Part shown: positions 49,694 through 58,962 of the stretch, in pieces
Numbering within the stretch: the first letter of the stretch is position 1
Layout of the letters: every line of letters starts with the position of its first letter
From: an uncultured beta proteobacterium
Lineage (GTDB): Bacteria > Pseudomonadota > Gammaproteobacteria > Burkholderiales > SG8-39
Assembly: GCA_903859155.1 (NCBI GenBank)
Contig: CAIOLO010000165.1
Coordinates: forward strand, 1 to 64,000
Direction: 5' to 3'
Length of the DNA stretch: 64,000 nucleotides
The notes under the pieces: model-generated
The model's input: the letters and a program-made list of their open reading frames with translations, nothing else
What the model was told of the DNA's origin: nothing
Databases searched by the model: none
Position numbers and translations under genes: made by a program

Positions 49694-50869
49694 TCAGTCT
49701 CCGATTCCCGGCCCGGCGGCGGCGCGGAACTGCCGGTTAGCCTCATCGACGCGTCCAATGGCGTCAAACAGCCTGCCCAATGCGATGTGTGCTGCACGCG
49801 AGCGCTGGATCGCGAGGCTTGCCTCCAGGTAACCCTGTGCCTTGCCCCATAACTCGCGTTCGGCGCAGAGCCTGCCCAGAACCAGGAGCAAGCCCGCATC
49901 ACGCGGGTATGCGGCAAGCCAGCGCTCGCTGCGTTCGATGCGCGACAGCGTTTCCGCGCCGCTGCAATCGCCGTAGAGTTGCACCAATTCGGCCTCCCAG
50001 CCGGATTCCAGCGCGTCTTCGATCGCCCGTCGCGCCGTTGCAGGATCACCCAGGTGCATGAAGGTCCGCGCCGCGACGGCTGCAATGCGCGGCTGCAGGC
50101 GCTGCTCTGCGGGCGCGCTTTTCCAGAATTGCGCGAGGCGTGTCAGGTCATTTGCCATTCGCCCGAGCTGTGCGATGTACGCGCCGCCGACTATGCCGTG
50201 CAATGCTTCCGGGGCGAGCGCGCCGCGCTTGGCCAGCTGCTGCGCGAGGCGGATAACTTCTTCCCAGTTGCCCAGCGCCTGTTCGCAGCGAAGCAGCAAT
50301 TGCTGGCTGGACAGGTGTCTCAGACCGCCCGCGTGCAGTTCGCCCAGCACGCGCTTGGCGTCCTCGAAGCGGCGCTCCTCGGCCAGCAATTCGGCCTCCA
50401 CCGCCAGCCGTGCGTTGCGCCACTCGGGCGCCGCGCCGCGGGCGCGTTCTAACCATTCGTCGCGCCGCCGGAAATCACGCCGCCGTTGCGCGGCGCGCGC
50501 CCCGATCAGACAGGCAAGCGCGGGGCTCGCGCCGTGCTCCCAGGCGTCGCCGGCCAGCTTGTCAACGCGTGCGTAGCGCCCTTCCAGTTGCGCCTGCAGC
50601 GCATCGATCAGGGCCTGGCGTGCGCGCGTATCGCGCTGGCGCTGCCGAAATGCACGCACATGTGCGGGTAGCGACAGCGCGTGCGCGGCAAGGCGCAGCA
50701 GGAAATATCCCGCAACAAAGGCAGCCAGCAATACCAGCAGGGCAAACACCAGCGAGATCTCAAGCCGCCAGGGCGGCAAAGTGACCAGTACATAGCCGTC
50801 ACCCTGCAAGGCCAGGGAAAGCGCCACGGCCGCGGCAAAAACCCCAACAACCCAAAGCAGGCCCCTCAT
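49694..50869 (-). CDS. hemY: HemY-like inner-membrane TPR protein
   Basis: A protoheme-cluster protein of proteobacteria, not the oxidase HemY of Gram-positives. From ATG 50869 it has two N-terminal membrane helices (LLWVVGVFAAAVALSLAL; ISLVFALLVLLAAFVAGYFLL) and a long helical region with TPR-like repeats up to ARRAIEDALESGWEAELV and GYLEASLAIQRSRAAHIALGRLFDAIGR. Its role in heme synthesis is not defined. It is the last gene of hemC-hemD-hemX-hemY. Confidence 0.9.
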   Translation of the reverse strand: MRGLLWVVGVFAAAVALSLALQGDGYVLVTLPPWRLEISLVFALLVLLAAFVAGYFLLRLAAHALSLPAHVRAFRQRQRDTRARQALIDALQAQLEGRYARVDKLAGDAWEHGASPALACLIGARAAQRRRDFRRRDEWLERARGAAPEWRNARLAVEAELLAEERRFEDAKRVLGELHAGGLRHLSSQQLLLRCEQALGNWEEVIRLAQQLAKRGALAPEALHGIVGGAYIAQLGRMANDLTRLAQFWKSAPAEQRLQPRIAAVAARTFMHLGDPATARRAIEDALESGWEAELVQLYGDCSGAETLSRIERSERWLAAYPRDAGLLLVLGRLCAERELWGKAQGYLEASLAIQRSRAAHIALGRLFDAIGRVDEANRQFRAAAGPGIGD

Positions 50870-50906
50870 GCAGGTGTTCCGCGGGCCGGTGCGCGCAGGG
50901 TGCGGT

Positions 50907-51935
50907 TCATCGCGAGGCTTTGTCGCGGGCGGATTTGAAGTTTCGCACAGCGGCCAGGCTTTCGGCGACACTGGGAAGCTCGATGCTTATCGCACTGGCA
51001 GCGACCTGCTTCAAGGTCCCGCCTGCGGCGATGACCTGCCTGGAGCGCGTATCGAAATACCGCGTCAGCCAGGCATTGGAGGCCTCCAGGTCCGCCCGCA
51101 GAACCGCTTCATTCCGGTCCAGCAGCGCAAGCCGCGCGTTGAGCAGGCGCAGCCGCAGGTTCTGCCGCAGAAAATAGGCCTGCGTCGGCGTCAGCAGCGG
51201 TGCCTCCGGCTGTTCGATGTTGCGCACGCGCACCAGTTGCTTCAACTCATCCAGGATGCCGCTTCCCAGGCGCGTCCAGAACCCCTCATCGCGCAGCTCG
51301 CTGGTCTGCGGCGCCGGCGCCCTCTCGTCGGTGGCCAGGGGCAGGGCATCGACAGCGGCAATCACCTGATCGATCCGCAGCGCCAGACCGAGGACATCCA
51401 CATTCGGCGCGGCCTTGAGACGCTCGATATCGCGCGCCATGGCTTTGCGCACCGCTATCAGCGGCGGCCGCTCCGAGCGCGCCAGACGGGCATCGGCGGT
51501 CTGCAGCGCCACCAGCGCCGCCTGGACGTTGCCTGCGAGTTGCAACTGTTGCGAGGCGATCGCAAGAATCTGCTCGACTTCGGCGAGAACCCATTCGTCG
51601 CGGCCTCGCGACAGGTCCTGGTACAGCGACTCCAGCGCGAGTTGCTGGCTTTGCGATTCGGCGAGCTTCGATTCCAGTTGCGCGATGCGCACTTGGGCGT
51701 CGCGAACCGATTCCTGTGCCTGGCGCGCTGCGGCGCGGGCATCGCGGCTGTCGGAATCGGTCTCACGCAGCCGTCCCGCGAGTTCCCGGCGCAGGTCGAC
51801 AACCTCGGTGCGGGTGTCAAACCAGAGCCAAGCCAGGCCCAGGAGCAGCAGCACCGCAATTGCAGCCAGCCATCGCGGCGCGCGGGCGCCCGCCTTGGGC
51901 TCGTCGGCATCGGGCAGCTTCTGACTGTCGTTCAT
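50907..51935 (-). CDS. hemX: HemX-like membrane protein
   Basis: The 342-residue protein has a short cytoplasmic N-terminus, a single transmembrane helix (residues about 22-40, WLAAIAVLLLLGLAWLWF) and a long coiled-coil region (LRRELAGRLRETDSDSRDAR onward) in the periplasm. In older E. coli work it was called a uroporphyrinogen methyltransferase; that activity is not expected from this sequence. It lies between hemD and hemY, which fixes the identity. Confidence 0.9.
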   Translation of the reverse strand: MNDSQKLPDADEPKAGARAPRWLAAIAVLLLLGLAWLWFDTRTEVVDLRRELAGRLRETDSDSRDARAAARQAQESVRDAQVRIAQLESKLAESQSQQLALESLYQDLSRGRDEWVLAEVEQILAIASQQLQLAGNVQAALVALQTADARLARSERPPLIAVRKAMARDIERLKAAPNVDVLGLALRIDQVIAAVDALPLATDERAPAPQTSELRDEGFWTRLGSGILDELKQLVRVRNIEQPEAPLLTPTQAYFLRQNLRLRLLNARLALLDRNEAVLRADLEASNAWLTRYFDTRSRQVIAAGGTLKQVAASAISIELPSVAESLAAVRNFKSARDKASR

Positions 51936-51972
51936 GTGTCTGCGTTCATGGTTGAGCGTTCAGGTATTGCGC

Positions 51973-52743
51973 TCACACTGTAGCAAAAAACGCTGCCAGG
52001 GCTTCCGCAACTGCGCCATCGCCGCCAATGGCAACGATCGCATGAGTAAAACCCATCATCCGCGCCGCCTCGGCGATACGCGGATGCGGTACGAAAACCG
52101 GCGTGCCCAGAACCAGTCCCGCATCCGCTGCACCGGCCATGTCGCGCAGGTTCGAGAGGGCTTCGCTGCTCGCCGCGCATACGGCCTTTACTGCGCCGGA
52201 ACGCCAGCGGGTCAGCAATCCCGACATGTCCGCTGCCGGACGCGCACGCCGGTAGCATTCGGCGTATTCGACGCGGGCGCCGCGGGCGGCAAGCACCCGC
52301 GCCAAGTGCTCGCGGCCACCGTCGCCGCGAAAAATGACAATATTTTGTCCGGCGATATCGCATAACTCCGGCATCGCGGCCAAAGCCTCGCTGTCGCCCG
52401 GCACCGGCGGCACAAGAATTTCATTTAGACCCAGTGCGGCAAGGGCCGCGGCGGTGCTGCGGCCGACGGCGGCCAGGCGCACCGCCTCTGGCCAGGAGCG
52501 TCGCTCGCGCACGCTGCGCATGCCCTCCCGCGCCGCGGTGGGACTGATGAATATCGCCCAGTCGAATGTATGCAGCCGGGCGATGACCATGGCGAGGTGC
52601 GCCGGTCGCGGCGCGGAAAGGATGTCGATGGCCGGAAAAAGGATGGCGTCCCCGCCGTCGGCGTGTATTTTTTCCGCCAGGGCATCGCCAAGGCCTGCAG
52701 GCCGGACAATCAGGATGCCGCAGTCAATCAGTCGGCCGCCCAT
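51973..52743 (-). CDS. hemD: Uroporphyrinogen-III synthase
   Basis: HemD closes hydroxymethylbilane with inversion of ring D. The 256-residue protein (ATG 52743) shows the weak but recognisable pattern of the family: ILIVRPAGLGDALAEKI, FDWAIFISPTAAREGM, LAAVGRSTAAALAALGL, IVIFRGDGGREHLARVLAARGARVEYAECYRR, given in parts: IVIFRGDGGREHLARVL and VEYAECYRRARP, then VPHPRIAEAARMMGF. It starts five bases after the hemC stop. Confidence 0.9.
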   Translation of the reverse strand: MGGRLIDCGILIVRPAGLGDALAEKIHADGGDAILFPAIDILSAPRPAHLAMVIARLHTFDWAIFISPTAAREGMRSVRERRSWPEAVRLAAVGRSTAAALAALGLNEILVPPVPGDSEALAAMPELCDIAGQNIVIFRGDGGREHLARVLAARGARVEYAECYRRARPAADMSGLLTRWRSGAVKAVCAASSEALSNLRDMAGAADAGLVLGTPVFVPHPRIAEAARMMGFTHAIVAIGGDGAVAEALAAFFATV

Positions 52744-52748
52744 GTGCA

Positions 52749-53666
52749 CTACTCACCCAGAATGCGGTCGGCGCCCAGCGCGCGCAATTGCGCTGCAAGT
52801 TCTTCACCCAAGGACTCGGCCTGGCGGGGTTCGCCGTGAATCTCGGCACGCAAGACTGTCTCTCCATCCTGCGTGGCCACCAGGCCGCGCAGATACAACT
52901 GCCCGGTCTCGATCACTCCGAAAACACCCAGCGGCAACTGGCAACTGCCGGACAGCGCCCGGCTCGCAGCACGCTCGGCACGCACGCAGGCGTCGGTCTC
53001 CACATCATTGAGCGCCGCGAGCAGGGTGGCCAAATCCTCCCGATCGTCGCGACACTCGATTGCCAGCGCCCCTTGCCCGGGCGCCGGCAGGCTGTGCTCC
53101 GGTTCAATGCATCCGCGAATGCGTTCGCCAAGGCCCAGCCGTTTCAGTCCGGCGGCGGCCAGCACCAGTGCGTCGTATTCGCCGCGGTCAAGTTTTGCCA
53201 GGCGCGTATCCAGATTGCCGCGCACCGGCACCACGTTCAGAAGGGGGAAGCGCTCGCGCAACTGCGCCTCGCGGCGCAGGCTGGAACTGCCCACGCGAGC
53301 CCCCGGCGGCAGTGCCTCCAAACTCGCGAAGTGCGGCGACACCAGGCAATCGCGTGGGTCCTCGCGGCGCAGCGTCGCGGCAATGCGGAATCCCGGGGGC
53401 AGGGTCATCGGGACATCCTTGGCCGAATGCACCGCGATATCGGCACGCCCCTCGAGCATCGCGGTCTCCAGTTCCTTGACGAACAGGCCCTTGCCGCCGA
53501 TCTTGGACAGGCTCACATTGAGGATCTGGTCGCCCTGCGTCGTCATGCCCAGTATCTCGACAGCGCATGCCGGATACAACTGCAGCAGGGATTCCCTCAC
53601 GTGTCGTGCCTGCCACAGGGCAAGCCGGCTCTCACGGGAAGCGATAATGAGACGATTGATGTTCAA
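52749..53666 (-). CDS. hemC: Hydroxymethylbilane synthase (porphobilinogen deaminase)
   Basis: HemC polymerises four porphobilinogens on a dipyrromethane cofactor. From TTG 53666 the protein has 305 residues: [67 protein letters not shown] and SGSCQLPLG. The cofactor Cys falls at residue 242, the same number as in E. coli, which supports this start. No ATG exists in frame upstream, so expression relies on a TTG without a strong ribosome site. Confidence 0.94.
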
Positions 53667-53893
53667 GCGGGTATTGAGACGGGTTGTATTACGGCGGGTG
53701 CCTGCCCTGCGTCCGCAAATGGCGATGCAGGAGTTGTTTGCCAGTGTCGGGATATTAGCATGCACCCGCCGCAACCCCCGCTGGCACAGACACCGCGGCG
53801 GCGCCCCGGCGCGGCGGACCAGCCATACGGGTGGCGTGGCGGCAAATCCGACCGCCCCCGGCCGCCCGGCCCCTGCGCAACGTATATACCCGG

Positions 53894-54661
53894 TCAGCGT
53901 TTCACCAGGGGCTTGATCATGCCCCACTGGCGCCGGCTTACCGGGATCGGTTCAGGATAGCCCTCCAGGTGTACCGCCCACTGGCCGCCTTCCTCATCGT
54001 CGGCTGTGGATCGAACACGCTCGGCACCACGGATGAGAGCCGCCGCGACCAGGCAGTTGCGGTGCACGCGCACGAAGCGCGCCCCGGCTTCCTCTTCAAT
54101 CTGGCTCAGGGAATCTTCGATCAGGAACTCGCGCTCGCGCGTATGCACGGTGACGTACTTCAATTCAGCCTTGAGAAACAGCACCTCCTGAACCGGAATC
54201 AGATGCACCCGGCCACGCTCGGCTGAACTGAAGTAACGGCGCGGGCCGGGGTCGGCACGCGCCAACTGCTCGCGTTGAGGCCCGCCGCTGCCGGCGAATT
54301 TGACCAGCGCCGCCGCCAGGCGCGCCGCGCGCACCGGCTTGAGCAGGTAGTCGATCGCATTGACTTCGAATGCCTGCACCGCGTACTGGTCATGGGCGGT
54401 AACGAAGATCACCCCGGGCGGATGATCCAGCACCTGCAAATGGCGTGCGAACTCGATGCCGCTCATGCCCGGCATGTGAATATCCACCAGCGCGATTTGT
54501 GCCTGGCAATCCGGGATCAGGGCGAGCGCCTGCACGCCGCTGGCGGCCTCGCCGACGACACGGCTGGGAACCTCGGCAGAACAATCGGCGAGCAGCTCGC
54601 GCAGACGCGCGCGCGCCGGCGCCTCGTCATCGACGATCAGGATCTGCAATGGCCCGCTCAC
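53894..54661 (-). CDS. algR: LytTR-type response regulator (AlgR-like)
   Basis: A 255-residue regulator. Receiver domain with acidic pocket IVDDEAPAR, phospho-acceptor Asp60 ([11 protein letters not shown]) and Lys108 (LLKPV). The C-terminal LytTR DNA-binding domain (about 145-255) has [28 protein letters not shown] and [14 protein letters not shown] in recognisable pieces such as ELKYVTVHT and [10 protein letters not shown]. It begins with GTG overlapping the kinase stop (GTGA). In Pseudomonas AlgR governs alginate, twitching and virulence; the targets here are unknown. Confidence 0.92.
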
Positions 54662-55686
54662 GGCCCGGCCTCGCCCAGGGTACGCCATGGAATGCAGATG
54701 AGTATCCGGAAGCGGTTGTCGACAATGGATGTCTCCAGCGATGCCTCGACGTCGAAATGCAACGCCAGTCGCTCGCCGATATTCACCAGTGCCATGCGGT
54801 TGCCCTGGCGATGCTGATGCTCCGGCCAGTAGGGATTGATCAGCTCCAGCCGCAACTGATCGCCGGCGCGGCTCACGCCGATCTCGATTCTGCCGGGCCC
54901 GTTGCCGGGTTCGATGCCGTGATAGACGGCGTTCTCCACCAGCGGCTGCAACAGCATCGGGGGCAGCAGCACCGGCCCGCACTGCGGGTCCACGCTCCAA
55001 TTGACGATCAGGCGATCGCCCAGACGCAGGTGTTCCAGGTCCAGATAGCGCCGGGTCAGCGTTATCTCCTCATCGAGCGTCACCAGGTCGCGGTTGTCGG
55101 TCATGACGCTGCGAAACATTTCCGCCATGTCCTCCAGCGCGGTCTCCGCGCGACGCGGGTCCTTGCGTATCAGGGACAGCACGGCATTGATGCTGTTGAA
55201 CAGGAAATGCGGCCGGATCCTCGCCTGCAGCGCCTGCAGCCGCGCTTCGGCCAGCGCCGGCGAGTAGGCGCGTTCGCGCAGCGAAAAATAGGCGGCCAGC
55301 GTAATGCACAGCAGCAGCGCGTAGCCGGCGCTCCAGGCTGCGCTGGCCTGGCCAAGACCCAGTGCGTTCAGCCCTGCGGCAACGCCCGCGGCGATCGCTG
55401 CCGCAATCAGCGCCACCACCGCGAGACCGTAGAAGTATCCCGGCCTTCGCAACCATCGGTCCAGGACATGCAGGCAGACCAGCGTGGCGAGCAGGGAGGG
55501 TTCCAGCGTGGAGGCTATACGCACGAACCGGTCGACCACTTCCGGCAGGGTATCGGAGCGCAACAGAGCCGCAATCAGTCCGGCGAAATTCGCAGCCAGC
55601 AGCGCCCGGGTCGCCAGCCCCAGATTGCGGAAATCGGGTAGCTTGCCGAACGTTTGCCTTATACTCTTGGGGTTGTAAGCGTTCAA
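54658..55686 (-). CDS. algZ: LytS/YehU-type sensor histidine kinase (AlgZ-like)
   Basis: A 342-residue membrane kinase. Four to five hydrophobic helices lie at about 25-140. The His_kinase domain has LQARIRPHFLFNSINAVLSLIRKDP, shortened here to RPHFLFNSINAV, with the phospho-accepting His. The ATPase domain has PPMLLQPLVENAVYHGIEP and NIGERLALHF; the canonical second glycine box is weak. The start is a TTG at 55686, so the true N-terminus is uncertain. Coupled to algR downstream and divergent from argH. Confidence 0.9.
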   Translation of the reverse strand: MNAYNPKSIRQTFGKLPDFRNLGLATRALLAANFAGLIAALLRSDTLPEVVDRFVRIASTLEPSLLATLVCLHVLDRWLRRPGYFYGLAVVALIAAAIAAGVAAGLNALGLGQASAAWSAGYALLLCITLAAYFSLRERAYSPALAEARLQALQARIRPHFLFNSINAVLSLIRKDPRRAETALEDMAEMFRSVMTDNRDLVTLDEEITLTRRYLDLEHLRLGDRLIVNWSVDPQCGPVLLPPMLLQPLVENAVYHGIEPGNGPGRIEIGVSRAGDQLRLELINPYWPEHQHRQGNRMALVNIGERLALHFDVEASLETSIVDNRFRILICIPWRTLGEAGP

Positions 55687-55724: not shown

Positions 55725-57182
55725 ATGGCAGGTCGCTCTATCGTTCCGCTCCATTCTATGCCAAGAAAATCCCCACCTTCCAGAAACCAATCCCGACAGC
55801 AGGCAGAGCGCAAGACGGCATGGTCAGGCCGCTTCGCAGAGCCGGTGTCCGAGCGCGTCAAGCGCTACACCGCATCGGTCGGATTCGATCAACGGCTGGC
55901 CGCCGAGGATGTGCGCGGATCGCTCGCGCACGCGCGCATGCTGGCCGCCAGCGGCATCATTACCCGCGCCGACCTGGCCGCGATCGAGCGCGGCATGAAG
56001 GCCATCGCCAGCGAGATAGCGGCGGGCAGCTTCGCCTGGTCGCTGGATGACGAGGATGTGCATCTGAACATCGAACGGCGCCTGACCGCGCTGGTCGGGG
56101 ACGCCGGCAAACGCCTGCATACCGCACGCTCGCGCAACGATCAGGTTGCCACCGATGTGCGCCTGTGGCTGCGCGGTGAACTCGACGGCATTGTCGCGCT
56201 CCTCACAGCGCTGCGCCGCGCGCTGGCGACCCTTGCCCTTGAGCATGCGGCACTGATCATGCCCGGCTTCACCCACATGCAGGTGGCGCAACCGGTGACT
56301 TTCGGCCATCACCTGCTTGCCTACTGCGAAATGTTCGAGCGCGACCTGCTGCGCCTGCTCGATTGCCGCAAGCGGCTCAACCGGCTGCCCCTGGGAGCGG
56401 GCGCTCTGGCCGGCACCACCTTTCCGATTCGCCGCGACCGCGTGGCCCGCGAACTGGGCTTCGACGGTCTGTGCGCCAACTCGATCGATGCGGTGTCGGA
56501 CCGCGACTTCGCCATCGAATTCTGCGCCGCTGCCGCGGTCGCGATGATGCACCTGTCGCGCCTGTCGGAAGAACTGGTGCTGTGGATGAGTCCGCGCTTT
56601 GGATTCATCGGCCTGCCGGACCGCTTCTGCACCGGCTCATCGATGATGCCGCAGAAGAAAAATCCGGATGTACCCGAACTCGCCCGCGGCAAGACAGCGC
56701 GCGTCTACGGCGACCTCATGGCCCTGCTCACCCTGATGAAGGGACAGCCGCTCACTTACAACAAGGACAACCAGGAGGACAAGGAACCGCTGTTCGACGC
56801 TGTCGATACGCTGCGCGAAACCCTGGCGATCTTCGCGGAAATGATCCCGGGCATCAGCGTCCACCCGGAGCGCATGCTGGCCGCGGCACGCGAGGGCTAT
56901 GCGACCGCCACCGACCTGGCCGACTACCTGGTGAAGAAAGGGGTGCCGTTTCGCGACGCGCACGAAGCGGTGGCGCGCGCGGTGCGCCACGCGGAGACCC
57001 TCAAATGCGACCTCGCCGACCTGCCGCTCGCCGACCTGCGCCGCTTTTCCCCGGCAATCGGCGCCGATGTGCGCAGGGCGCTCACCCTGGAGGGCTCGGT
57101 TGGCGCCCGCAAGCACCCGGGAGGCACGGCACCCGCCCAGGTGCGAGGCGCCGCGCGCCGGGTTTTGCGGCAGAGCCGTTAG
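55725..57182 (+). CDS. argH: Argininosuccinate lyase
   Basis: ArgH splits argininosuccinate to arginine and fumarate. The 485-residue protein shows [69 protein letters not shown] and the lyase signature [19 protein letters not shown] with its catalytic Ser. N-terminal extension of about 30 basic residues precedes the usual start; ATG 55758 is an alternative. The algZR // argH divergent order is typical of betaproteobacteria. Confidence 0.96.
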
Positions 57183-57210
57183 TCGCTTGCCAGCCAAGTT
57201 TTGACGGGCT

Positions 57211-57240
57211 AAATCATGGGGTTGCGTACGTGCCGACAAT
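57211..57240 (+). promoter_or_regulatory. Candidate promoter of the kinase gene
   Basis: TTGACG (57211-57216), an 18-base spacer and GACAAT (57235-57240). The -10 lies inside the left arm of the inverted repeat 57234-57277, and the predicted start falls in its loop. The same -10 hexamer is used by the tRNA promoter at 18590. Confidence 0.45.
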
Positions 57241-57277
57241 TTGCAAAATTGCGCCTTTGCAACTTTGCAAATTGTCG
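57234..57277. repeat. 14-bp inverted repeat, likely operator, before the kinase gene
   Basis: CGACAATTTGCAAA and TTTGCAAATTGTCG are perfect complements separated by 16 bases. The heptamer TTTGCAA occurs three times (57240-57277). There is no T-tract, so a terminator of argH is less likely than a binding site for a regulator. Its right arm ends 24 bases before the kinase start. Confidence 0.65.
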
Positions 57278-57301
57278 TGAAAAGCGGATTCCGGGCCGTC
57301 C

Positions 57302-58588
57302 ATGACCGCCCCCCTGCAGCGCATAGGCAAATTCGAGGTCAAACGCAAGCTGGGCGAAGGCGCCACCAGCGAGGTCTACCTTTGCGATGATCAGTTCAAC
57401 AAGCGCGAAGTCGCCATCAAGGTGGTGTTCGAGAACCGCCTGGAGCAGTCCGACGACGGCAGGTTGACGCGCAAGCTCTTCATCACCGAAGCCTCGCTCG
57501 CCGGCAAGCTCAATCACCCGCACATCGTACAGATCTTCGACGCGGTGGTCGGGGAGACCCTGTCCTACATCGTGATGGAATTCGTCCCCGGCGGGACGCT
57601 CGAAAAATTCTGCAGCAAGGACGCGCTGCTTCCCATAGACAAAGTTGTCGAGATCATTTTCAAATGCACGCGCGCGCTGGATTTCGCCAACCGCCTGGGC
57701 GTAACCCACCGCGACATCAAGCCGGCGAACATCCTGGTGTCGGGGGAAACCGACATCAAGATTTCCGATTTCGGTGCAGCCCTCATGTCCTCGGTTGACC
57801 AGACCCAGGTGGCGGGTATCGGTTCGCCCGCCTACATGTCGCCGCAGCAGATCAAGGAACACCCCCTCAACCACCAGACCGACATCTATTCGCTGGGCGT
57901 GGTGATGTTCCAGCTGCTCACCGGCCAGTTGCCGTTCCAGGCATCCAACAACTATTCGATGATGTACCAGATCACCAACGTGGAACCGCCCCTGGCCTCG
58001 TCCCTGCGCAAGGAGATTCCGCTGTCGGTGGACAAGATCGTGCGCAAGGCCATGCAAAAGGAACTTGAGCGCCGCTATGAAACCTGGGAGGCGTTCTCCT
58101 ACGACCTGGCCGAAGCCTTTCGCAGCGGCATTCTGGGCGAGCACAGCGAGGAAGTTGCAGACAGCGAGAAATTCAACACCATGCGCGCGCTGGTCTTTTT
58201 CGACGAGTTCAGCGACGCCGAACTGTGGGAGGTGATGCGCATTTCAACCTGGGAAAACCTGCCAGCCGATCACACCATCATGCAGGACGGCGACAAGGGG
58301 GATTTTTTCTGCGTACTCGCGCAAGGAGAGGTGAAGGTGACCAAGCGCAAGAAGCTGCTCAACATCCTCGCCCCGGGGGAATGCTTCGGCGAGATGGCTT
58401 ATCTTTCAAGAACCGGCAATGAGCGCAGCGCCGACGTATCCACCATGAGCGAGTCGCGCGTCATCCGCATCCGCACCGAGGACCTGGAAGCCTCCTCCCA
58501 GGCCTGCCGCTACCGCTTTGACCGCGCCTTCATGGGGATACTGGTGGAGCGGTTGGCACTGGCGAACACGCGTTTAACCGCGGTGTAA
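57302..58588 (+). CDS. Ser/Thr protein kinase fused to a cyclic-nucleotide-binding-type domain
   Basis: A 428-residue cytoplasmic protein. Residues 8-275 form a Hanks-type kinase: GEGATSEV loop, catalytic Lys40 (VAIKVV), HRDIKPANIL (Asp138), DFG at 156-158, GSPAYMSPQQ and DIYSLGVVMFQLLTG. Residues about 296-415 form a CNB/Crp-like domain: LVFFDEFSDAELWEVMRIS, FFCVLAQGEVKVTK, and the phosphate-binding cassette GECFGEMAYL with Arg375-Ser376. The cassette matches proteins that bind cAMP or cGMP. No transmembrane or PASTA part is present. It could be a ligand-gated kinase; targets unknown. Confidence 0.92.
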   Translation: MTAPLQRIGKFEVKRKLGEGATSEVYLCDDQFNKREVAIKVVFENRLEQSDDGRLTRKLFITEASLAGKLNHPHIVQIFDAVVGETLSYIVMEFVPGGTLEKFCSKDALLPIDKVVEIIFKCTRALDFANRLGVTHRDIKPANILVSGETDIKISDFGAALMSSVDQTQVAGIGSPAYMSPQQIKEHPLNHQTDIYSLGVVMFQLLTGQLPFQASNNYSMMYQITNVEPPLASSLRKEIPLSVDKIVRKAMQKELERRYETWEAFSYDLAEAFRSGILGEHSEEVADSEKFNTMRALVFFDEFSDAELWEVMRISTWENLPADHTIMQDGDKGDFFCVLAQGEVKVTKRKKLLNILAPGECFGEMAYLSRTGNERSADVSTMSESRVIRIRTEDLEASSQACRYRFDRAFMGILVERLALANTRLTAV

Positions 58589-58602
58589 CCGGCAAAAACA
58601 AT

Positions 58603-58648
58603 AAAGCTTCAGGGCGGGGGAAGAGGGCTCCCCCGGTTCTGAAGCTTT
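58603..58648. terminator. Large bidirectional terminator between kinase and grxD
   Basis: AAAGCTTCAG and CTGAAGCTTT (10 pairs) enclose a second GC stem (GGGGGA with TCCCCC). It ends in A/T-rich arms on both strands, fitting a shared terminator for two converging genes; the grxD stop codon touches its right edge. Confidence 0.75.
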
Positions 58649-58962
58649 CAGGCCTTTTCTTCCAGCAGCTTTTGCAGCTCACCCGACTGGTACATCTCTT
58701 TCATGATGTCCGAGCCGCCGACGAATTCGCCGTTGACATATAGCTGGGGAATGGTGGGCCAGTTGGCGTAATCCTTGATCCCCTGGCGTACTTCGGGGTC
58801 ATCGAGTACGTTCACCGTGTGCAGGGCCTTCACTCCGCATGTGTCGAGGATCTGCACCGCGCTGGCCGAAAATCCGCACATCGGAAAGTCCGGCGTGCCT
58901 TTCATGAAAAGTACCACCGGATGGCCGGTGACTGTCTGCTGAATGCGTTCTTTGGTATCCAT
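58648..58962 (-). CDS. grxD: Monothiol glutaredoxin, Grx4 type
   Basis: A 104-residue CGFS glutaredoxin (Cys29-Gly-Phe-Ser) with [37 protein letters not shown] (glutathione-binding TIP and GGSD). Such proteins pass iron-sulfur clusters with BolA partners. It lies downstream of hemA-prfA-prmC, a common betaproteobacterial order. Confidence 0.96.

Follow-up and report, generated by a model that had tools for sequence, protein, structure and literature searches.

Does a single bacterial gene join cyclic nucleotide sensing to protein phosphorylation, and is that gene controlled by the palindrome lying in front of it? Both questions were raised by a complete open reading frame (57302..58588, + strand, stop codon included) in the 64,000-nucleotide stretch of DNA analysed here (the window). 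This gene encodes a 428-aa protein in which a Ser/Thr kinase is followed by a cyclic nucleotide-binding (CNB) domain.

Domains and known relatives of the window protein

The Hanks/PknB-type kinase domain occupies residues 11-264 (57332..58093, + strand; Pfam PF00069, E 1e-50), and its catalytic Lys (K40), alphaC Glu (E63), HRD Asp (D138), Asn (N143) and DFG Asp (D156) are all present. The CNB domain with its flanking helices covers residues 286-428 (58157..58585, + strand), as indicated by a PF00027 match to residues 318-397 (E 5.7e-16), AF2 modelling and Foldseek. Both domains scored well over the Pfam cut-offs, and the two remaining Pfam matches overlapped the kinase domain. The PBC of the CNB domain spans residues 362-377 and fits the canonical FGE...R(S/T/A)A motif, with FGE at 362-364, the phosphate-binding Arg at R375, and S376 and A377. 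The sequence-only reading, which had described an intact Ser/Thr kinase and an intact CNB domain (FGE and Arg375-Ser376) in one soluble chain, was thus borne out for both domains and both motifs. The term soluble is reasonable, since no hydropathy of membrane-helix strength was found in the protein (highest 19-residue Kyte-Doolittle mean, 1.25).

An AF2 model of the full protein, built on a 31-sequence alignment, had a mean pLDDT of 86 and a pTM of 0.62. Linker residues 279-284 fell under pLDDT 50, and the model gave no confident domain arrangement, so it supports no allosteric path. The CNB part modelled alone reached an AF2 pLDDT of 93, and its top Foldseek matches included M. tuberculosis CRP and the regulatory domains of PKG and PKA, many of them solved with ligand. 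At the sequence level the CNB domain likewise matched PKA-R, PKG and CRP domains.

The kinase domain most closely resembled PknB/Stk1. Its top match in a PDB sequence search was M. tuberculosis PknB (E 2e-44, 155 bits), Foldseek ranks 1-23 were all PknB/Stk1 structures, and NCBIfam NF033483 matched with E 2.1e-75. In contrast to PASTA PknB/Stk1 proteins, the window protein had no PASTA match in the Pfam search and no membrane-helix-like stretch, and its NF033483 score of 254.8 bits lay under the 450 cut-off. The comparison with eukaryotic PKG, also drawn in the earlier reading, held in part. Kinase and CNB share one chain with a canonical pocket, PKG CNBs rank with the top matches in both sequence and fold, and the CNB is indeed C-terminal. 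However, this reverses the PKG order, in which the CNB is N-terminal; there is one CNB here; and the kinase is closer to PknB than to PKG (best PKG match among solved structures, 119 bits for the whole sequence), as compared through solved relatives and Foldseek rather than an AGC model. The window protein is not a member of PKG.

The joining of a bacterial Hanks kinase to a CNB domain is a combination already known from passages of two papers. Kannan et al. 2007 (PMC2246266) describe, in the part consulted, bacterial CNB domains joined to kinases among other domains in an 'Other_bacterial' group, which the window protein resembles in its canonical PBC (consensus GEMALLDGEPRSATVVA) and its kinase attachment. 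That part of the paper lists 'kinases' only, without naming their type, the order of the domains, a link to argH (described below) or a family of their own. A passage of PMC11032199 names CNB among the few associated domains common to STKs of Planctomycetota, yeast and C. elegans; these Planctomycetota kinases belong to another phylum than the window family, and the likeness seen is one of domain content. A cNMP_binding domain also appears in a figure of PP2C architectures in PMC12088040. Neither cNMP nor cyclic nucleotide nor CNB turned up in the abstract of PMC1262709 or in a term search of that paper. Among the matches listed in a search of literature titles and abstract openings, with most subscription journals outside its scope, no bacterial kinase carrying a CNB domain was reported as tested. 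Neither the argH-linked clade nor the repeat family described below was met in those titles and abstract openings or in the passages, which came from searches aimed at subjects other than the repeat.

A conserved family, one clade of which is linked to argH

Using the window kinase-CNB protein as a query, and counting its own genome each time, we found matches in 43 of 61 relatives (E 1e-60), in 46 of 274 genomes of the class (E 1e-70) and in 3 of 299 genomes of a phylum sample (E 1e-60). Among the named organisms with a full-length relative are Azonexus hydrophilus and MAGs of Rhodocyclaceae, Azoarcus, Propionivibrio and Gallionellaceae. To call this the most promising unexplained system of the window was therefore an overstatement, as the family recurs in relatives and the part of PMC2246266 seen listed the kinase-CNB combination in 2007. 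The own genome encodes a second kinase-CNB protein, 44% identical to the first. Among the query-matched places and 21 CNB matches of that genome, the two domains occur together in these two genes only, and the CNB-before-kinase order is absent. At three places in the genome (C155:26129-26812, C120:7846-8454 and C6:12840-13433), one open frame holds CNB matches in tandem, an arrangement reminiscent of PKA regulatory subunits.

Viral and defence origins were considered and rejected. Thirty viral-contig loci matched the protein, none past residue 308, so that the CNB domain was not reached. In the comparison with anti-phage kinases (PD-T4-6, MADS6), the best 25 of 41 PADLOC matches covered the kinase part and ended by residue 312. 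The neighbourhood consists of argH, hem and housekeeping-type genes and is not that of a defence system.

Residue conservation was assessed in an alignment of 31 sequences and in a wider set of 89 proteins, made up of these 31, 18 near full-length matches from 17 of 80 named loci, and 40 stretches picked from the match rows of the searches of relatives' and class genomes; the set includes one sequence with an in-frame stop (L255) and one that is incomplete (L253). In the 31 sequences, kinase K40, E63, D138, N143 and D156 and CNB G363, E364, M365 and R375 were invariant. In the 89, kinase G20, K40, E63, N143 and D156 were kept throughout and D138 in 88, while in the CNB domain E364 was kept in 89 and R375 in 87 (one exception, L220, has Arg one alignment place off; the other, L239, has His); selection by good match to the query favours apparent conservation, and because of this selection the counts hold for this family and not for kinase-CNB fusions in general. 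When residues 290-428 were ranked by conservation, E364 tied for first and R375 for sixth. Position 376 was variable across the 89 proteins, and we read Ser376 as not discriminating cAMP from cGMP. In our own alignment G333-D334 take the place of PKA Gly169-Asp170 in the beta2-beta3 loop; the Gly169 equivalent was kept in 27/31 sequences but in 47/89 of the wider set. According to a passage of PMC2246266, the Arg coordinates the cAMP phosphate and Gly169 is co-conserved with this phosphate-binding Arg.

Upstream of the kinase gene lies argH (argininosuccinate lyase; 55725..57182, + strand), a conserved neighbour, with the kinase frame beginning 119 nt past its stop. Counting the window, 25 of the 30 loci that have 1.5-kb flanks show the two genes side by side, and one of the other five (L012) ends at a contig edge; the genes also adjoin in 7 of 23 named loci examined (L057-L062 and L074). 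All 29 argH-linked proteins in the tree fall in one clade with no unlinked members (local support 0.975), where argH scoring covers loci with flanks and 40 of the 89 proteins entered the tree without them. Five linked sequences lie outside the tree (L009, L014, L019, the second copy of L055 and the partial L074). The argH stop and the first aligned residue of the kinase are no more than 65 nt apart at 27 of 32 junctions (33 rows, one of them a duplicate that was set aside), and at several junctions stop and start overlap. This arrangement suggests that argH and the kinase form one operon, in which the kinase gene is probably transcribed with argH.

On the other side, a monothiol glutaredoxin-like gene (58648..58962, - strand), which we take from its sequence to be grxD, is a frequent neighbour, with tblastn matches in 18 loci, a count that includes two derived from the window. 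On the far side of argH, the window carries a run of hemY, hemX, hemD, hemC, LytTR regulator and His_kinase genes (49694-55686). We take the hem/LytTR/His_kinase/argH order to resemble argH-fimS-algR-hemCD of Pseudomonas.

Other gene pairings were seen elsewhere in the family. Two kinase-CNB genes lie close together in six same-class genomes that were fetched. A phosphoglucose isomerase gene (pgi) lies between them in four (L047, L049, L050 and L056) and a CBS-pair gene in four (L047, L048, L050 and L056), while L051 has neither; a glucokinase-like gene adjoins the pair in L048. The pgi assignment in L047 and the CBS assignments in L047 and L048 were confirmed by Pfam, and the rest were made by eye.

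The palindromic repeat between argH and the kinase gene

The earlier reading gave the kinase gene an operator-like promoter, overlapping a 14-base inverted repeat with three TTTGCAA boxes, and took its transcription to be probably regulated. The repeat exists as sequence: a hairpin at 57234..57277 has arms (57234-57252 and 57259-57277) that are 95% complementary, with the outer 14 bases perfect, and TTTGCAA occurs on the + strand at 57240, 57256 and 57264. It is among the best paired of 24 inverted repeats found at the same settings, and TTTGCAA is no more frequent in the window than expected (10 found vs 10.97 expected by calculation).

The hairpin proved to belong to a dispersed element. The 107 bases at 57186-57292, used as a DNA query, gave 13 own-genome matches (the query site contributing one on each strand) and, across 11 genomes, 9 and 12 matches in two congeners and none in 8 other relatives. 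An alignment of 21 copies (20 fetched, L175-L194, and that of the window) defined a palindromic element of about 155 bp with a 23-pair stem, nine pairs of which carry changes on both sides. A covariance model of this element matched the window at 57179..57335 (+ strand), its end extending into the kinase frame. Of 37 genomes searched, it gave 37 matches in the own genome, 65 and 43 in two others of the genus, 35 in a genome of another genus (G020) where the DNA search gave none, and none in the remaining 33, including the genome of L022 (G015); distinct copies are fewer than these counts because opposite-strand matches on the same hairpin are included. About 20 long own-genome matches were among those listed. 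An Rfam search of the window stretch and 8 of the 20 fetched copies gave only miRNA-family matches under the gathering score. Several copies start at a TAG triplet, possibly the stop codon of the preceding gene.

Comparison with congener L009, where the argH-kinase gap is 16 nt vs 119 nt in the window, places the extra bases at about 57187-57290, and the repeat is therefore most simply an insertion here. By eye, it was not seen at 31 other argH-kinase junctions, so that conservation of an operator upstream of orthologues was not found. Two junctions in two other genera carry palindromes of their own: in L011 (about 1326-1501) an unrelated one comes with what looks like a duplicated kinase 5' end, and in L022 (about 1417-1450) a different one has TTGCAA in both arms.

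That the 57234-57277 repeat nonetheless acts as an operator or promoter element of the kinase gene is, in our judgement, very improbable. In favour of such a role are the near-perfect palindrome directly upstream of the gene, stem pairing kept through two-sided changes in 9 of 23 pairs, what we read as TTGACA-like and TATAC-like blocks in the repeat consensus, and TTGCAA in the otherwise different L022 palindrome. Rough gene calling around the 20 other copies showed a same-strand gene downstream in 10. However, the upstream gene is on the same strand in 14 of these copies (opposite in 4, none or unclear in 2), and 6 of the 14 lie between convergent genes; this flank pattern argues against an operator role at the kinase gene. 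So do the dispersal of the element through four genomes and its absence from the L009 junction. A sigma-70 scan of 57100-58700, which covers one promoter type, found no site, leaving the proposed promoter without a match, although one inside the 155-bp element is possible. Nor did the alternative of an argH terminator find backing, as on neither strand is the stem followed by a T-run, and a terminator scan did not report it. The inverted repeat would thus be an inserted repeat element, not an operator.

Ligand supply and the proposed mechanism

No cyclase was seen beside the window kinase-CNB gene; the own genome has nine class III cyclase (PF00211) matches, all on other contigs. A class III cyclase is present in 42 of 43 kinase-positive vs 13 of 18 kinase-negative relatives (Fisher p 0.007), with median numbers of 8 and 1, but this association is confounded: the relatives' genomes are not independent, because the number of cyclases depends on signalling content and kinship as well. 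The exception is a kinase-positive genome without a PF00211 match (G042, 68% complete). Within the 24 genomes that belong to other families of the order, cyclase number again differed between kinase-positive and kinase-negative members (Mann-Whitney p 0.002), and genome size differed weakly between kinase-positive and kinase-negative relatives (p 0.07). Class I adenylate cyclase was rejected as a ligand source, as it occurs in none of the 61 relatives.

Further cyclase contexts were seen by the way. Among the matches listed, and by eye, a cyclase lies about 2 kb from a kinase-CNB gene in one case, in G038 (L215, with cyclase-hemerythrin and HDOD genes). In the own genome, one gene run encodes a CHASE2-kinase, a PP2C phosphatase, an FHA protein and a CHASE2-cyclase (C32, L217 3253-9816), and another stretch (C80, L216 2691-4745) holds a single ORF in which a class III cyclase and a Ser/Thr kinase are fused to a response-regulator receiver.

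We think it probable, judging from the sequence, that the window protein is a cyclic-nucleotide-gated kinase, PKG-like in logic, PknB-type in its catalytic domain and reversed in domain order. A direct link from cyclic nucleotide to phosphorylation, as first proposed for this gene, seems reasonable. A 3',5'-cyclic nucleotide supplied by the cell's class III cyclases, with cAMP as first choice and cGMP as second, would set kinase activity from the C-terminal CNB domain. Binding in the FGE...Arg pocket may shift the helical linker (residues about 265-300) together with the C-helix of the CNB domain, and this shift would relieve, or impose, inhibition of the PknB-type kinase. The ligand, the sign of its effect and the substrates are the parts of this model that we infer.

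Two other roles for the CNB domain have to be weighed against cyclic nucleotide gating. It may regulate the kinase by sensing a nucleoside, c-di-GMP or another small molecule, which we consider unlikely. CNB families do vary in ligand, and position 376 is variable here; parts of the literature describe a trypanosome PKA that binds nucleosides (PMC10959531), and heme and chlorophenolacetate in CNB pockets (PMC2246266). However, in the passage of PMC2246266 the heme and chlorophenolacetate cases have a different residue at the Arg position, whereas Arg375 (87/89) and Glu364 (89/89) are kept in this family, and class III cyclases are numerous in the kinase-positive relatives. The CNB domain might instead serve dimerisation, localisation or partner docking, with the kinase under autophosphorylation as in PknB. 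The PknB-like kinase domain points this way, as does activation-loop Thr168, kept in 29/31 sequences but only 68/89 of the wider set. The AF2 model also has a long C-terminal helix (residues 400-427), as dimerising CNB proteins do. Yet the pocket residues themselves are conserved, not the helix alone, and such a role seems to us quite improbable. Gating by a cyclic nucleotide is the reading that we prefer.

Textbook bacterial cAMP signalling acts through CRP-type transcription factors. If the preferred reading is true, a cAMP-gated bacterial Ser/Thr kinase adds a fast post-translational branch to cAMP signalling, and would be an independent origin of the PKA/PKG idea. Tentatively, and with more doubt than confidence, we suggest that beta- and gammaproteobacteria may possess a cyclic-nucleotide-dependent kinase branch independent of PKA and PKG, in which cAMP would control metabolism directly, by way of phosphorylation and not of CRP, with one clade tied to argH and so to arginine synthesis, and others beside pgi, glucokinase and CBS-pair genes.
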